Source of the DNA: Lachnospiraceae bacterium
GTDB taxonomy: Bacteria > Bacillota > Clostridia > Lachnospirales > Lachnospiraceae
Length of the DNA stretch: 51,707 bases
Assembly: GCA_017558205.1 (NCBI GenBank)
Contig: JAFYWD010000240.1
Span: 1-51,707 of the forward strand
Reading direction: 5' to 3'
In this document: positions 47,389 through 51,707 of the stretch, piece by piece
Position numbering within the stretch: position 1 is the stretch's first letter
Layout of the letters: each line of letters begins with the position of its first letter
The notes under the pieces: model-generated
Database searches by the model: none
The model's input: only the letters and a program-made list of their open reading frames with translations
Told to the model about the DNA's origin: nothing
Position numbers and translations under genes: made by a program

Positions 47389-47411
47389 AGCTTTGTTGTC
47401 AAGAACAATAT

Positions 47412-47485
47412 GTACGCTTAGCTCAGCTGGATAGAGCGTTTGGCTACGGACCAAAAGGTCGGGGGTTCGAATCCTCTAGCGTACA
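47412..47485 (+). tRNA. tRNA-Arg (anticodon ACG)
   Basis: A 74-base cloverleaf. The acceptor arm is GTACGCT/AGCGTAC with discriminator A, and the D arm contains AGCTCAGCTGGATAGAGC. The anticodon stem TTTGG/CCAAA surrounds CTACGGA (anticodon ACG, normally modified to ICG). The T arm contains GGTTCGAATCC. CCA is not encoded. It has its own promoter and terminator, and its 3' end borders the AT-rich island. Confidence 0.95.
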
Positions 47486-47491
47486 GTAATA

Positions 47492-47527
47492 AAAACCTCG
47501 TAAACTCAATGGTTTACGAGGTTTTTT
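47492..47527 (+). terminator. Terminator of the tRNA-Arg transcript
   Basis: AACCTCGTAAAC and GTTTACGAGGTT form a perfect 12-bp stem with A-run before and T-run after. Confidence 0.9.
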
Positions 47528-47558
47528 GTTGTTCTAAAACAAATTGAATAGTGGATTC

Positions 47559-47597
47559 AACCAAGAATTAACCAAGAAATAAATTTTCGACCAAGAA
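47559..47597 (+). repeat. Three short direct repeats ACCAAGAA
   Basis: The 8-mer ACCAAGAA occurs three times, at about 47560, 47571 and 47590, spaced 11 and 19-20 bases, directly after the tRNA terminator. Such repeats could be arm-type recombinase sites or iterons at an element end, but this is inference. Confidence 0.4.
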
Positions 47598-47690
47598 AAG
47601 GGGAAGAAATTAGTATTTGAAAATGATATAGGCTTATGATATTTTAAAGAAAATATAATATGCTTACCGGGGTAGCCGGGGGACGTGTTT

Positions 47691-47753
47691 CCACCTGTTC
47701 CGAGCCTGTTCGGAAAGGGGTGGCAAAAAGGAAAGGGAAGAAACTTCCCTTCC
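47691..47753. other. Two GC-rich hairpins in AT-rich DNA; candidate replication origin structure
   Basis: In the first hairpin CCACC/GGTGG encloses TTCCGA-GCCTGT-TCGGAA, a nested stem (47691-47723). In the second AAGGGAAG-AAA-CTTCCCTT forms a tight 8-bp stem (47733-47751). They are preceded by GC-rich DNA from 47665. The island also encodes an HUH replication initiator. A double-strand origin or a packaging/termination structure is possible; no known nick sequence is recognised. Confidence 0.45.
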
Positions 47754-47772
47754 CTCCCTGTGCGTTTATATT

Positions 47773-48051
47773 TTTATAAAAATTTGCATTTTAACCATAT
47801 CTAAAAATCAACCAACCTTCAAAATTTTTATATTCTTCTTTATTAACGTGTTTTTCATAGATGTTTTTTAAGTCTGATTTTGTAAAAATCTCGTTTTTAA
47901 AAGGTTCTTCGTAAGTTATATATTTTTGCATTTTTTTAAATTCTTTCTTTTAAAATTTAGTTTTTATGTGTTTTGAAAATTTGAAAAAAATAAAGAAATC
48001 AAGGAATTTGTTTCAAATAATGAATAAATTTTTATTTATAAAAATTTGCAT
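47773..48051 (+). repeat. 17-bp direct repeats flanking the 46-codon gene
   Basis: TTTATAAAAATTTGCAT occurs at 47773-47789 and again at 48035-48051 in the same orientation. The 245 bases between hold one small minus-strand gene, so this could be a duplicated segment end or a recombination footprint. Confidence 0.5.
47791..47931 (-). CDS. 46-residue protein of phage/plasmid type, unknown function
   Basis: The ATG at 47931 opens a frame of 46 codons ending in TAA at 47791. The sequence has a charged N-terminus (YITYEEPFKNEIFT), then KSDLKNIYEKHVNKEEYKNFEGWLIFRYG. The pattern of an acidic-aromatic YxxxV(D/N)xxEYxxFxxW resembles short proteins seen in phages and integrative elements of Firmicutes, to my recollection. 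No strong ribosome site is visible. Amino-acid composition and codon use look coding rather than random, unlike the shadow frames around it. Confidence 0.42.
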   Translation of the reverse strand: MQKYITYEEPFKNEIFTKSDLKNIYEKHVNKEEYKNFEGWLIFRYG

Positions 48052-48545
48052 GGTACTTTAATTTTGATTTTTTTAAATAAAAACCATTCTTAAAAATAAA
48101 TTTTTAAAAAAACATAATAAATAAGAAAAATACAAAATATAGAAGAAAAAAACATAAAAAAATGTTAAAAATCAGACTTAAATTCTTGAGATTTTATTAA
48201 GAAATGAAGATTTTGATATTTTAGATACAATTTTTTAAAAATAAAATACAAAAATATAAAATTACTTTATATATAAAGCGTAAATAAAAAAGAAGCCTGT
48301 TAATAGCTGTAACTATCAACAAGCTATCCACAATGTAAGTACAATTTACAAAAGGATTTTTCTTTTTCTATACATTATATGTAAAAGAAAAAATGATAAA
48401 ATAAAAGATTTTTTGATATTTTTAGCTTTTTTTCTTTGTTTTTATATAAATTTTACCTTTGTAGAAGTTCTTACATTGCAAAAAATGTAGGGACTTTTAC
48501 TTTTTGTTTAAATATAACACCTAGAAATATAGAAAGGAGGGGAAC
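47932..48545. other. Extremely AT-rich leader of the rep gene with small stem-loops
   Basis: No gene is supported here. Visible elements are GTTAATAG-CTGTAA-CTATCAAC (an imperfect hairpin near 48299), a DnaA-box-like CTATCCACA near 48325 directly after it, and TGTAA/TTACA near 48335. The terminator-like hairpin at 48465 is listed separately. The stretch probably holds the rep promoter and possibly a replication or copy-control signal. Confidence 0.4.
48465..48508 (+). terminator. Terminator-like attenuator hairpin before rep
   Basis: AAGTTCTTACAT and ATGTAGGGACTT pair over 12 bp (two G-U pairs) around TGCAAAAA, followed by T-rich DNA. It lies about 40 bp before the rep start, so it could attenuate rep or end a short upstream RNA. 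Confidence 0.6.
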
Positions 48546-49250
48546 ATGGCTAAAGTTAAAGGGTTAGTTCACACAACTACATACGGCAATGGGATGCAAA
48601 AACAAAGCGTTTATGTGCATAATCCCAATTATAAAGGCTATGTTGCCCCTGCTACCGAAGAAGAAAGGCAGGTGGAAAACAAGCGACTTAGGGGTGTTAA
48701 AAGCAAATCCAATCTATTGCAACGGGTGTTAAGTTGTGACACATATAGATTTTTTGTAACCCTTACTACTGACGACTTAGCACTTGCGTTGGATGGGAAA
48801 AAATTGCTAGATTGTGGGGCTAAATTCCTGCGGGCTAATGGTATGGAGTATGCTAGGGGCGACTTTTTCGTAGTTTTGGAAACTTTCGACAACCATGTAA
48901 AAGGCTACCATTTACACGCATTAACAAGCTTTCCAGTTAATTTGGTAAACTGGTGTGCTTGCTATGGGGCTGATGCAACAAAAGATAGCATTTGGGAAAA
49001 TTTAGGCGAAAATTGGGACATTCCAGAGGATTTGTATAATGTTTGGGGTACTGACTGGGATGCAATGGGTAATTTGTATTGCGAAAAATTACGTTATTTA
49101 AATTGTGGTATTAATGTTGGGATTTTGCGAGGTTTATTATATATAACCAAAAAAATAGATGAAACCAAAGAGAGAATGGAAAAGGAAAACAAAAAAGGTA
49201 TCCATATCTATAGGGCAAACGTAAAAAAAATCAAAAAAATACAGATGTAG
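48546..49250 (+). CDS. HUH-endonuclease replication initiator (Rep), ssDNA-phage / rolling-circle type
   Basis: This 234-residue protein carries the three ordered motifs of HUH initiators: RFFVTLTT (motif 1, about residue 68), GYHLHALTS (motif 2, metal-binding His-x-His, about 119-127) and LLYITKKI (motif 3, Tyr-x-x-Lys, near 206-213). The Tyr would nick and hold the DNA 5' end during rolling-circle replication. The YITK style recalls replication proteins of small ssDNA phages. AGGAGG lies 5 bases before the ATG. The protein ends KKIKKIQM in an A-rich stretch, where another frame continues with acidic coding-like sequence, so it may be truncated by a frameshift. Base composition differs sharply from the chromosome. 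Confidence 0.68.
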   Translation: MAKVKGLVHTTTYGNGMQKQSVYVHNPNYKGYVAPATEEERQVENKRLRGVKSKSNLLQRVLSCDTYRFFVTLTTDDLALALDGKKLLDCGAKFLRANGMEYARGDFFVVLETFDNHVKGYHLHALTSFPVNLVNWCACYGADATKDSIWENLGENWDIPEDLYNVWGTDWDAMGNLYCEKLRYLNCGINVGILRGLLYITKKIDETKERMEKENKKGIHIYRANVKKIKKIQM

Positions 49251-49763
49251 ATTTTTTGAAGTTTTTGAAGAAGATTTTGAAGATTTTCTTAAAAAAACTT
49301 CCCAAAAAGTAAAAAAACATAATGAAAAATTTAATGAAAAAGCTGAAAAAAATTGAAGAAAAAATAGAAAATGATTTCATTTCATTAAAAAAAATAATTC
49401 GTAATTTTGAAGAAGGTAATTTAAAAAAAGTTAACAATATATTTAGAAGAAAGAAATACTTCTACAATAAAAAATAATGAAATCAATGAAAATTACGAAA
49501 TTTTTGAAGAAGTATTTTATATTGAAAGTGTTTCTGAAGAAAAAACTAATGATTTAGAAGAATTTTCTTCTTCTAAAGGGTTTTCTAAAGAAGAAAACAA
49601 TGAAAAAATTCAAAAATTAAATGATGAAATCAGCTATTATAATTCTAGAATTAAAGAAATTGAAAATTTAATAGACATAACCGACCGTAAAAATAGGGAG
49701 GGAAAAAGGAAGATTTTCCTTTTTTCCTTTTTGGTAGGATTAAAATGTATGAAGGTTTATTAA
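49225..49763 (+). pseudogene. Frame-shifted coiled-coil region after rep
   Basis: Three coding-like pieces follow in three frames. Frame A (49225-49356) reads RFFEVFEEDFEDFLKK. Frame B (49322-49477), with an ATG, reads KKLKKIEEKIENDFISLKK in a 51-residue product. Frame C (49425-49763) reads NENYEIFEEVFYIESVSEE and then NNEKIQKLNDEISYYNSRIKEIENL. All are acidic, Lys-rich and heptad-like, and the frame changes fall at long A-runs. This may be the broken C-terminal part of Rep or a broken second gene, or sequencing indels. Frames A and C have no start codon. Confidence 0.5.
49700..49735 (+). terminator. Terminator after the frame-shifted region
   Basis: GGAAAAAGGAA pairs with TTCCTTTTTTCC with one bulge, then CTTTTT. 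Confidence 0.6.
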
Positions 49764-49972
49764 AGTATGTCTGAATAGATGAAAAATTAGTCAATTTGTA
49801 AATAATTGAAAATATATTGCAAGTAGTAGCCTTTTATGATAGTATCACACCAGATAAAGAAAAGTCAGAATTGGATATGTGTAGCGGTATAAACTTTAAA
49901 TATGAATTATCAAGAATATTTATGATGATGAGAGGTTTATTCCGTTATTTTAAAACCTTTTTTGATAATTAA
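49745..49972 (+). pseudogene. Remnant gene with two in-frame stops
   Basis: From ATG 49745 one frame reads MYEGLLKYV, stop (TGA), IDEKLVNL, stop (TAA), then 56 residues including VVAFYDSITPDKEKSEL and FKYELSRIFMMMRGLFRY, ending at TAA 49972. The continuous coding look across both stops suggests a decayed gene. The family is not recognised. It abuts the metalloprotease gene. Confidence 0.42.
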
Positions 49973-50001
49973 TATTCTTGTTTGTACATAGGAGGTAGAA
50001 T

Positions 50002-50865
50002 ATGTATTTTATTGATTTTATCAAGAGTTTGGGAAAAAAGCACAGAATACCTGTTATTATTTATTTGGTATTTAATGTAGTGATTATCACTTGCATTGTT
50101 GGTAATATACTTGTTGCAATGGGTATATATGCTTTATCTATTATTCTTGCATTGTCGCCAGTAGGTGAATGGATATTAAGAACTCAAATGGGGTGTAAAA
50201 AGATTAATCGAATAGATTATGCTGAACGTCTTACTCCTATTTTTAAAGAAGTTTATGCTCGTGCCAAGCAGGAAAACCCTTTATTGCCAGATGATATTGA
50301 ACTTTGTATGAATGATGATAAAGCTCCAAATGCATTTGCAACAGGGAGAAAGACAATCTGTCTTACTAAGGGGATGTATGAAAATGCTACTGCAGAGGAA
50401 TTAAAGGGAGTATTCGCACATGAATTTGCACATATAGCAAATCACGACACAGATCTAATTCTTGTTGTAACAGTAGGAAATATAATTATAACAACAATGA
50501 TTATTGTGATTAGATTCGTATTTAGAATTATGTCATTTTTTGGAAGTATTTCAAATGTTTTTGGTTCTGGACAAGGAAACGCTCCAATTTTAATTGGAAT
50601 TGTGGGTGATGTTGTGGTCGCAGCACTTATGTGGGTATGGACAAAACTTGGTCAATATCTTGTACTGGCAACAGGAAGAGCTGAGGAATATTTGGCAGAT
50701 GATTTTTCATTAAAGCTTGGATACTCAGAGGGACTTTGCCGGTTTCTTGATAGGTTTGTAGGTGAACGTAGAAAGGGTGTTTTCGCAGTTCTTTCAAGTA
50801 GTCATCCGGCAAAAGATGATAGAATTGCCAAATTACAACAGAACGGATGTACATATAGAGCATAG
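50002..50865 (+). CDS. M48-family (HtpX-like) membrane zinc metalloprotease
   Basis: In this 287-residue protein two N-terminal membrane helices (about 17-55) are followed by a catalytic domain with KAPNAFATGRKTICLT, then the zinc motif HEFAHIANHD (His140, Glu141, His144). After two further helices comes RAEEYLADDFS, whose glutamate near 229 is the third zinc ligand. The C-terminus SSHPAKDDRIAKL is typical of M48. All catalytic residues are intact. HtpX-type enzymes degrade misfolded membrane proteins. AGGAGG lies 7 bases before the ATG. It sits at the end of the AT-rich island and may be cargo or chromosomal. Confidence 0.85.
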   Translation: MYFIDFIKSLGKKHRIPVIIYLVFNVVIITCIVGNILVAMGIYALSIILALSPVGEWILRTQMGCKKINRIDYAERLTPIFKEVYARAKQENPLLPDDIELCMNDDKAPNAFATGRKTICLTKGMYENATAEELKGVFAHEFAHIANHDTDLILVVTVGNIIITTMIIVIRFVFRIMSFFGSISNVFGSGQGNAPILIGIVGDVVVAALMWVWTKLGQYLVLATGRAEEYLADDFSLKLGYSEGLCRFLDRFVGERRKGVFAVLSSSHPAKDDRIAKLQQNGCTYRA

Positions 50866-50930: not shown

Positions 50931-51707
50931 ATGACATTAGAAGAGAAGATTGCAAAAATAGATAAAACATATGTAGATTTACAGAAATTTGTGCATGAGA
51001 GTGAGTATGAATATGGGGCAATGTTGATAAGAATTATTGTTGAAATGATTGTTAATTCTTATACTGATTATTATGTTCCAGAAATAAAAAATAAAGGACA
51101 GATTCCAGCGATTATGGAACAAATTACGGCATTAGAGAAATGTAGTAATTTTCCCAAAAGTCATATTTATAATCTTCATGAAATGAGAAAAATAGGAAAC
51201 ATGGGATCTCATCAGGGAGAAGGAAAAGAAGTTAAAGGAATCTATATACAAGCTATTATGCCTAATGTTCTAGATGAAATTAATGTGTGGAAATCCTTTG
51301 AAAAAGAGGGAGAGCAAAAACTTATTCAAATGAATACAGAACGGCAAAATATATTGCTAAATGGTAAAGTTGAAAAAGATCCTACTAAAATAAAAGTTGC
51401 ATTAGTATTATCGGTAATTGCATTTGTAGTAATTTTATGTTGTACCATGAATAAAACGATTCAGTTTTTTACTATGGGATTATACTATGACGAATCTGGA
51501 TTACTTTTATATTGGGGATGTGTAATAGCATACTTTATTTTATCAGCATATTGTAGACCTTATGGGAAAATACATAAATCCTTATTTAACATATTAACTA
51601 TATATTTCATTTTACCTCGGATATATCAGGTAATACTTTGTATTATGGGAGAAGGATTGTTAATGTTAGCTATTGTTTATACTTTAATTATATTCTTTTT
51701 TGTAGGT
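50931..51707 (+). CDS. DUF4145-like domain membrane protein (3' end outside window)
   Basis: An open frame of 259 codons runs from ATG 50931 (GAGG 6 bases upstream) to the right edge without a stop. Residues about 20-105 contain AMLIRIIVEMIVNSY, PAIMEQITAL and LHEMRKIGNMGSHQG, the layout of DUF4145/HEPN-like helical domains. After a charged linker (about 125-155) there are at least four hydrophobic segments from about 157 on. DUF4145 domains often occur in restriction and other defence proteins, but also elsewhere, so no function is claimed. It starts 65 bp after the protease gene, behind a terminator. Confidence 0.55.
   Translation, partial: MTLEEKIAKIDKTYVDLQKFVHESEYEYGAMLIRIIVEMIVNSYTDYYVPEIKNKGQIPAIMEQITALEKCSNFPKSHIYNLHEMRKIGNMGSHQGEGKEVKGIYIQAIMPNVLDEINVWKSFEKEGEQKLIQMNTERQNILLNGKVEKDPTKIKVALVLSVIAFVVILCCTMNKTIQFFTMGLYYDESGLLLYWGCVIAYFILSAYCRPYGKIHKSLFNILTIYFILPRIYQVILCIMGEGLLMLAIVYTLIIFFFVG

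Follow-up and report, generated by a model that had tools for sequence, protein, structure and literature searches.

The window analysed here is the whole of a contig of 51,707 nucleotides (C171; JAFYWD010000240.1) from the draft genome of a Lachnospiraceae bacterium (GCA_017558205.1; 2.68 Mb, 295 contigs, 89% complete), and it carries near its right end a tRNA-Arg(acg) gene followed by inserted DNA. By its gene content the host may be a gut member of the Clostridia. Within this DNA lies a segment of about 2.0 kb (47724-49733) that is bracketed by two inverted, hairpin-forming repeats and holds a gene, here called rep, for a protein with the three motifs of an HUH replication initiator (Rep). 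Past the tRNA gene the base composition changes sharply, as a sequence-only reading of the window had noticed, the guanine plus cytosine (G+C) content being 0.393 upstream of tRNA-Arg and 0.263 in 47724-49733. That reading had proposed an HUH-Rep island beside the tRNA, related to single-stranded DNA (ssDNA) phages; the inserted DNA and the three-motif gene stand, whereas a close ssDNA-phage kinship, a small phage-like gene and an island end at 49990 are not supported. It had overlooked the leader of a toxin gene and the two inverted hairpin repeats around the Rep segment.

Six genomes of the same genus were compared and the tRNA-Arg(acg) locus was obtained from five of them; one (L037) stops 269 bp past the tRNA and is uninformative, leaving four informative loci. 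In three of these (L032, L033, L034) mscL lies about 0.2-0.6 kb past tRNA-Arg, the fourth (L031) has an open reading frame (ORF) of 1961 amino acids followed by lgt, and lgt is found on that side of the tRNA in all four. Loci free of the island, which the sequence-only reading had thought worth comparing, are thus at hand within the genus. In the window's genome mscL-lgt lies on another contig (C212), whose end is 461 bp before mscL and which carries six tRNA genes, none of them tRNA-Arg(acg). Since mscL or lgt stands past the tRNA in the relatives, while mscL-lgt is on C212 here, gene order marks everything between about 47535 and the end of the contig (51707) as an insertion relative to the genus, open on its right. 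BLAST similarity to L032, L033 and L034 stops at 47530-47535, inside or just after the tRNA terminator. A second tRNA 3' end was sought in the assembled genome, and the one match was tRNA-Arg itself; a three-sequence profile found no integrase in the window, in line with the earlier reading. Of the two marks of a tRNA-targeted integrative element, a tyrosine integrase was thus not found in the window, nor a repeated tRNA end in the draft genome as assembled.

From the tRNA to position 50002, rep (48546-49250) is the sole larger intact ORF, in agreement with the earlier reading. Its product shows FVTLT at residue 70, HLH at 122 and YITK at 199, that is, HUH motifs I, II and III in order with one tyrosine, and a glutamate stands ten residues ahead of HLH-122. 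The TLT motif lies 50 residues ahead of HUH, an arrangement that we take to be of the Rep-protein type. When the three motifs and the distances between them were written as a search expression, 0 of 200,000 shuffled versions of the protein fitted it; of 358 ORFs with 150 amino acids or more, six did, namely the protein itself and five proteins from loci of the Rep family PF23343 (REP_ORF2-G2P). As the expression was composed with the protein already known and recovers 4 of the 19 PF23343 panel proteins, it supports specificity, not sensitivity. The G+C content at the three codon positions of rep (0.44/0.33/0.36) is close to that of a host gene (0.44/0.34/0.40) amid surroundings of 19-21% G+C, which suggests that rep has been kept as a gene. 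An HUH fold is predicted from the motifs, since profile, database and single-sequence AlphaFold results lend it no further support.

The left inverted repeat, CAAAAAGGAAAGGGAAGAAACTTCCCTTCCCTCCCT, starts at 47724, and its imperfect reverse complement ends at 49733, so that the pair brackets a 2.0-kb segment of 26% G+C around rep. Each copy folds as a single-strand hairpin, and the bases shared by the two hairpins reach past the stems (AGGGAGGGAA, CCTTTTTG). When the whole flanks of rep were searched with composition-weighted scoring, this pair was the best, at 34.8 versus 19.8 +/- 2.2 in shuffled controls (n=300), none of which reached it. The corresponding z was 8.2 for this pair; it did not exceed 2.3 at the 12 places with PF23343 Rep genes (of 21) whose longer flanks were retrieved, nor 0.4 at three genes of the window; one control locus (L095) has a strong repeat (33.9) that is direct, not inverted. 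The pattern GGGAGGGAAN{0,5}GGAAGN{2,8}TTCC, derived from the pair itself and hence informative by its rarity elsewhere, has two sites in the assembled genome, both of them here and inverted to each other. In 347 other genomes it was met at three places, all within coding frames and unpaired in the fetched 3 kb, and a backwards control pattern at one. The inverted pair is real and special, and it may serve as the ends of the element, as sites for Rep, as terminators or in more than one of these roles.

On its left, the segment has an exact junction. The stretch 47634-47760, used as a query against 200 genomes of the family, matched 17 other places in 15 of them (own genome included) at 74-90% identity, and all 17 matches end at or before 47723. 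With one more from a further search, 18 distinct leaders were obtained, of which 15 lead, after a few more bases, to a short hydrophobic peptide, for example MSTYEEFMVILT...; two leader-linked peptides were compared with Pfam, and that of L028 matches Hol_Tox (PF16935), while that of L030 matches nothing. Because leaders elsewhere run into such peptides, one of them a PF16935 match, 47634-47723 is a promoter and leader of Hol_Tox type, with the coding sequence of these genes absent here. The leader is cut at 47723/47724, behind an apparent ribosome-binding site, and the left repeat starts at the next base. The toxin body was sought in the window and not found, and the idea that the right flank is the remainder of the toxin gene was rejected, as neither alignment nor window searches show a continuation. 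The GC-rich hairpins of the earlier reading are thereby partly revised: hairpins are real, terminator-like sites being in excess (six versus 1.0 +/- 0.9 expected, at four distinct places, one being the tRNA's own terminator), whereas part of its GC-rich hairpin (47649-47723) proves, against the other leaders, to be promoter and leader sequence of a common toxin gene of Hol_Tox type. This correction holds whatever role the inverted hairpins have.

Table 1. Features of the inserted DNA and its left boundary, with positions in the window.
Feature	Position	Strand	Evidence or remark
tRNA-Arg(acg)	47411-47486	+	ARAGORN; Rfam RF00005; relatives; left boundary of inserted DNA
tRNA terminator	47487-47531	+	terminator scan; partly kept in three same-genus relatives
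Toxin gene of Hol_Tox type: promoter and structured leader, without the coding sequence	47634-47723	+	17 other places; alignment
Left inverted repeat, hairpin-forming	47724-47759	+	terminator-like on the minus strand
ORF of 46 amino acids, doubtful gene	47791-47931	-	no credible match
Hairpin with T-run upstream of rep	48294-48325	-	terminator scan; weak fold (z -1.24)
Terminator-like hairpin in rep leader	48461-48500	+	fold and terminator scan
rep, orphan HUH Rep-like protein of 234 amino acids (predicted)	48546-49250	+	three motifs; no credible database relative
Three overlapping open frames rich in K/E, read apart	49225-49356, 49313-49477, 49425-49763	+	
Right inverted repeat, hairpin then TTTTTGG	49695-49733	+	not scored as terminator by scan
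M48 (HtpX-like) peptidase, rest of inserted DNA	50002-50865	+	PF01435, E 6.5e-23
DUF4145 protein, cut by contig end	50901-51707	+	PF13643, E 2e-5

By sequence statistics, the Rep-like protein is an orphan. It matched no Pfam family up to E 10, and the profile search against Rep families suggested by the sequence-only reading gave no score above the PF23343 gathering cut-off; no NCBIfam or PADLOC family was matched, the one PHROG (of unknown function, E 0.21) is at chance level, and the best match among PDB sequences had E 1.2. A tblastn search up to E 10 of 50,697 phage and 72,556 plasmid records yielded no credible relative, its five short weak pieces lying under tail or hypothetical proteins. 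Peptide patterns, by which close relatives only are detectable, found none in IMG/VR or in the contigs of 84,980 species; the sole IMG/VR match to a degenerate KGYHLHAL pattern (L109) was rejected, having no Rep-type frame. Among 98 related genomes, 392 of the order and 391 of the class (overlapping sets, own genome included) no credible relative appeared either, three candidates at E 0.004-0.01 (G006, G488, G536) being dismissed as chance after their ORFs were read. No transposase family matched in Pfam or NCBIfam, and no Y1 transposase domain was recognised. The nearest blastp pair, in a set of 20 sequences, is the Zot-linked Rep of L068, with 25% identity over residues 45-157 (113 residues; E 0.006), a resemblance that is not significant by hhalign. 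A Rep like those of ssDNA phages is accordingly not borne out: the likeness is limited to the generic HUH motifs and this L068 match. The supposed small phage-like gene, the minus-strand ORF of 46 amino acids at 47791-47931, has no credible match, and no coat/capsid or Zot-type ATPase gene was found among the six ORFs searched from the tRNA to the contig end, the island being open at 51707. The absence of a capsid gene is thus upheld, and so, within the libraries and the phage, plasmid and genome collections covered, is the description of the element as undescribed.

Taken together, we regard it as about an even call that the segment of some 2.0 kb is a small, decaying, Rep-driven mobile replicon of rolling-circle type, or a transposon-like element, sitting inside a bigger island at tRNA-Arg. 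This foreign island would span the stretch from tRNA-Arg(acg) to mscL, and the element within it would have landed just past the ribosome-binding site of a toxin gene of Hol_Tox type that has since lost its coding sequence. The reading draws on the empty site in relatives, the three motifs, the host-like codon positions of rep, the inverted pair and the exact left junction. To judge from the motifs, the one-tyrosine HUH Rep would start rolling-circle synthesis from a nick made at an origin within or close to the element, so that autonomous replication would be expected; the inverted hairpin repeats that would close both ends may be Rep recognition or end sites and outward terminators as well. 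Integration could be due to Rep, to a lost integrase or to another transposase, and a minimal satellite and Rep-driven integration, both earlier proposed, are possible. The decay that had also been proposed fits the fragmented K/E-rich frames right of rep, which overlap and look like one decayed gene. In sum, the segment has the look of a small replicon for which mobility is predicted and close relatives are not known.

Several results weigh against this reading. With plain match scoring the inverted pair reached 83 versus 81.7 +/- 6.7 in shuffles, 134 of 300 of which were as good, a scoring useless for the pair because the DNA is so AT-rich. The left repeat scores as an ordinary outward terminator, and the right one is readable as a terminator. 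No target duplication was seen around the 2.0-kb segment, which has no clean empty site, since the toxin gene is not resumed in the right flank; and as no Rep relative was found, the element ends are seen in one copy only. A hidden Markov model (HMM) built from 19 PF23343 proteins gave the Rep-like protein 5.6 bits, a score reached by 6 of the 1849 shuffles scored (of 2000), and among the 85 of 121 ORFs scored an unrelated one of the window (AddA-like by reading) had more, 7.5 bits. Alignment by hhalign with two PF23343 alignments gave probabilities of 0.2% and 0.1%, the unrelated control reaching 0.2%. AlphaFold, run on the single sequence for want of relatives to align, returned a predicted local distance difference test score (pLDDT) of 35.

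The main alternative, which we consider unlikely on balance, is that rep was left behind by a larger prophage or integrative element, which would have used a tyrosine integrase, since lost or on a missing contig, to enter at tRNA-Arg, and that the hairpins are terminators of the outermost transcription units. PF23343 Rep genes are indeed common in the group, occurring at 21 places in 17 of 98 related genomes (own included); one of them (L084) lies in an apparent tailed prophage, as read from ORFs, and that of L068 has a Zot-domain protein and an integrase as its neighbours. An integrase gene was present in the fetched flank (mostly about 1.5 kb) of 3 of the 18 Hol_Tox-type leaders, which shows that leaders of this type can be part of integrative elements, and the terminator score of the left hairpin, with the TTTTTGG that follows the right one, would be expected. 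However, there is neither an integrase in the window nor a second tRNA end in the assembled genome; the hairpins share bases past their stems, with a pattern found nowhere else in that assembly, and the 12 other Rep places tested lack such an inverted pair.

A transposon-like HUH element, in which the Rep-like protein would act as transposase on inverted hairpin ends in the manner of TIRYT or IS200/IS605, is clearly less probable still. One HUH gene between inverted hairpins, the exact left junction and the lack of a visible target duplication agree with it, and TIRYT genes, Y1 transposases with terminal inverted repeats, have been described (PMC6006769). Against it, the protein matches no transposase family, its TLT motif is of the Rep type, and the segment is a single copy with no relative and no empty site. 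We attach a similarly low probability to a more particular form of the idea, a bacterial mobile element whose ends are inverted repeats that form hairpins and whose movement, by rolling-hairpin-like or Rep-catalysed insertion, depends on an HUH Rep of replication type with one tyrosine, not on a Y1 transposase, and which has no known relatives. Least probable by far is that rep is cargo of an inverted-repeat element which is not autonomous and owes its mobility to a DDE transposase encoded elsewhere: inverted ends and the failure to recognise a transposase in the segment would suit it, yet no target duplication is seen, and the assembled genome, incomplete as it is, has no further site with the end pattern.

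The systems to which the segment can be compared differ from it in several respects. Proteins of REP_ORF2-G2P, known from microviruses, inovirus-like elements and prophages, have the same order of motifs I-II-III, one tyrosine and a similar size; unlike them, the Rep-like protein stays below the Pfam cut-off and is not significant by hhalign, its gene has no recognised capsid, Zot or integrase gene near it, and it is flanked by inverted hairpins, a feature missing at the 12 PF23343 places tested out of 21. The nearest published layout, in the part of the literature seen, is that of TIRYT and of the TnpA-REP genes, which lie between REP hairpins (PMC6006769), likewise a single HUH gene between inverted hairpin-type repeats. 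Nevertheless, the protein here matches no Y1 transposase family and has motifs of Rep type, and the TIRYT consensus given in that source, GGGG[AT][CG]A[CG], differs from the present repeats, of which the genome has two copies. Of the features of Y1 transposase elements, the inverted hairpin ends are present, and several copies or an empty site are not. In adeno-associated virus (AAV), a parvovirus with rolling-hairpin replication, a rep gene also lies between palindromic inverted terminal repeats (PMC5714925); here, by contrast, the setting is a bacterial chromosome, there is no capsid gene or helicase domain match, the ends are short simple hairpins, and there is no sign of a linear form. In the literature covered, partially and by title and start of abstract, we found no bacterial replication-type Rep between inverted ends. 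Since the Pfam score, the Y1 domain, a capsid, an integrase and an empty site are all wanting, no family membership is claimed.

The role of the hairpins determines what the locus means. If they are the ends on which this Rep acts, a replication-type Rep would be linked to insertion-type mobility in bacteria, and a Rep lineage would have gone undetected by the libraries used here. If they are terminators only, the locus would be of minor interest, an orphan Rep that has decayed within an island at a tRNA.

Other signals within the segment may bear on its control. The minus-strand hairpin upstream of rep could, speculatively, be the end of a counter-transcript or an origin hairpin; it was considered as a double-strand origin, a candidacy set aside given its weak fold. 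The hairpin in the rep leader is possibly an attenuator, and the two together would fit copy-number control of the plasmid kind, which is speculation. The last of the K/E-rich frames reads across the whole right repeat, a finding at odds with either that frame or a terminator at this place. Past the tRNA terminator, three ACCAAGAA direct repeats at 47560-47597 are perhaps old integrase arm sites.

The conserved promoter and leader (CCGGGGGACGTG...GGGGTGG; window 47634-47723, L030:226-387, L028:9388-9562) stands mostly ahead of Hol_Tox-type peptides. It is structured and could be modelled as an RNA family; compared with Rfam, the window stretch gave nothing above a family threshold except the tRNA. 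The window's own genome has a copy of the leader in contig C207 with a different peptide variant, which a toxin-peptide search of that genome had missed, so that this search says little on toxin copies there.

Two PF23343 loci of the group deserve mention in their own right. In L068 (G072:C25), of the same order, a Zot-domain protein, a PF23343 Rep and a tyrosine integrase lie side by side in an inovirus-like element. In L084 (6794-9870; G041:C1) a tandem duplication of about 1.4 kb includes the PF23343 Rep gene, the Rep frame of the second copy being shorter; it lies inside the apparent tailed prophage of a one-contig genome, judged from ORFs without a family search.

Beyond the right repeat at 49733, and past the 49990 formerly taken as its end, the inserted DNA continues to 51707 with the M48 peptidase and DUF4145 genes. 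The DUF4145 protein has a hydrophobic C-terminal part and a weak PADLOC resemblance to PD-Lambda-5_A (E 0.002). The best relative of the peptidase (52% identity; L097, G844:C416) belongs to a tandem pair that has a TIR_2-domain gene next to it, possibly a defence setting.

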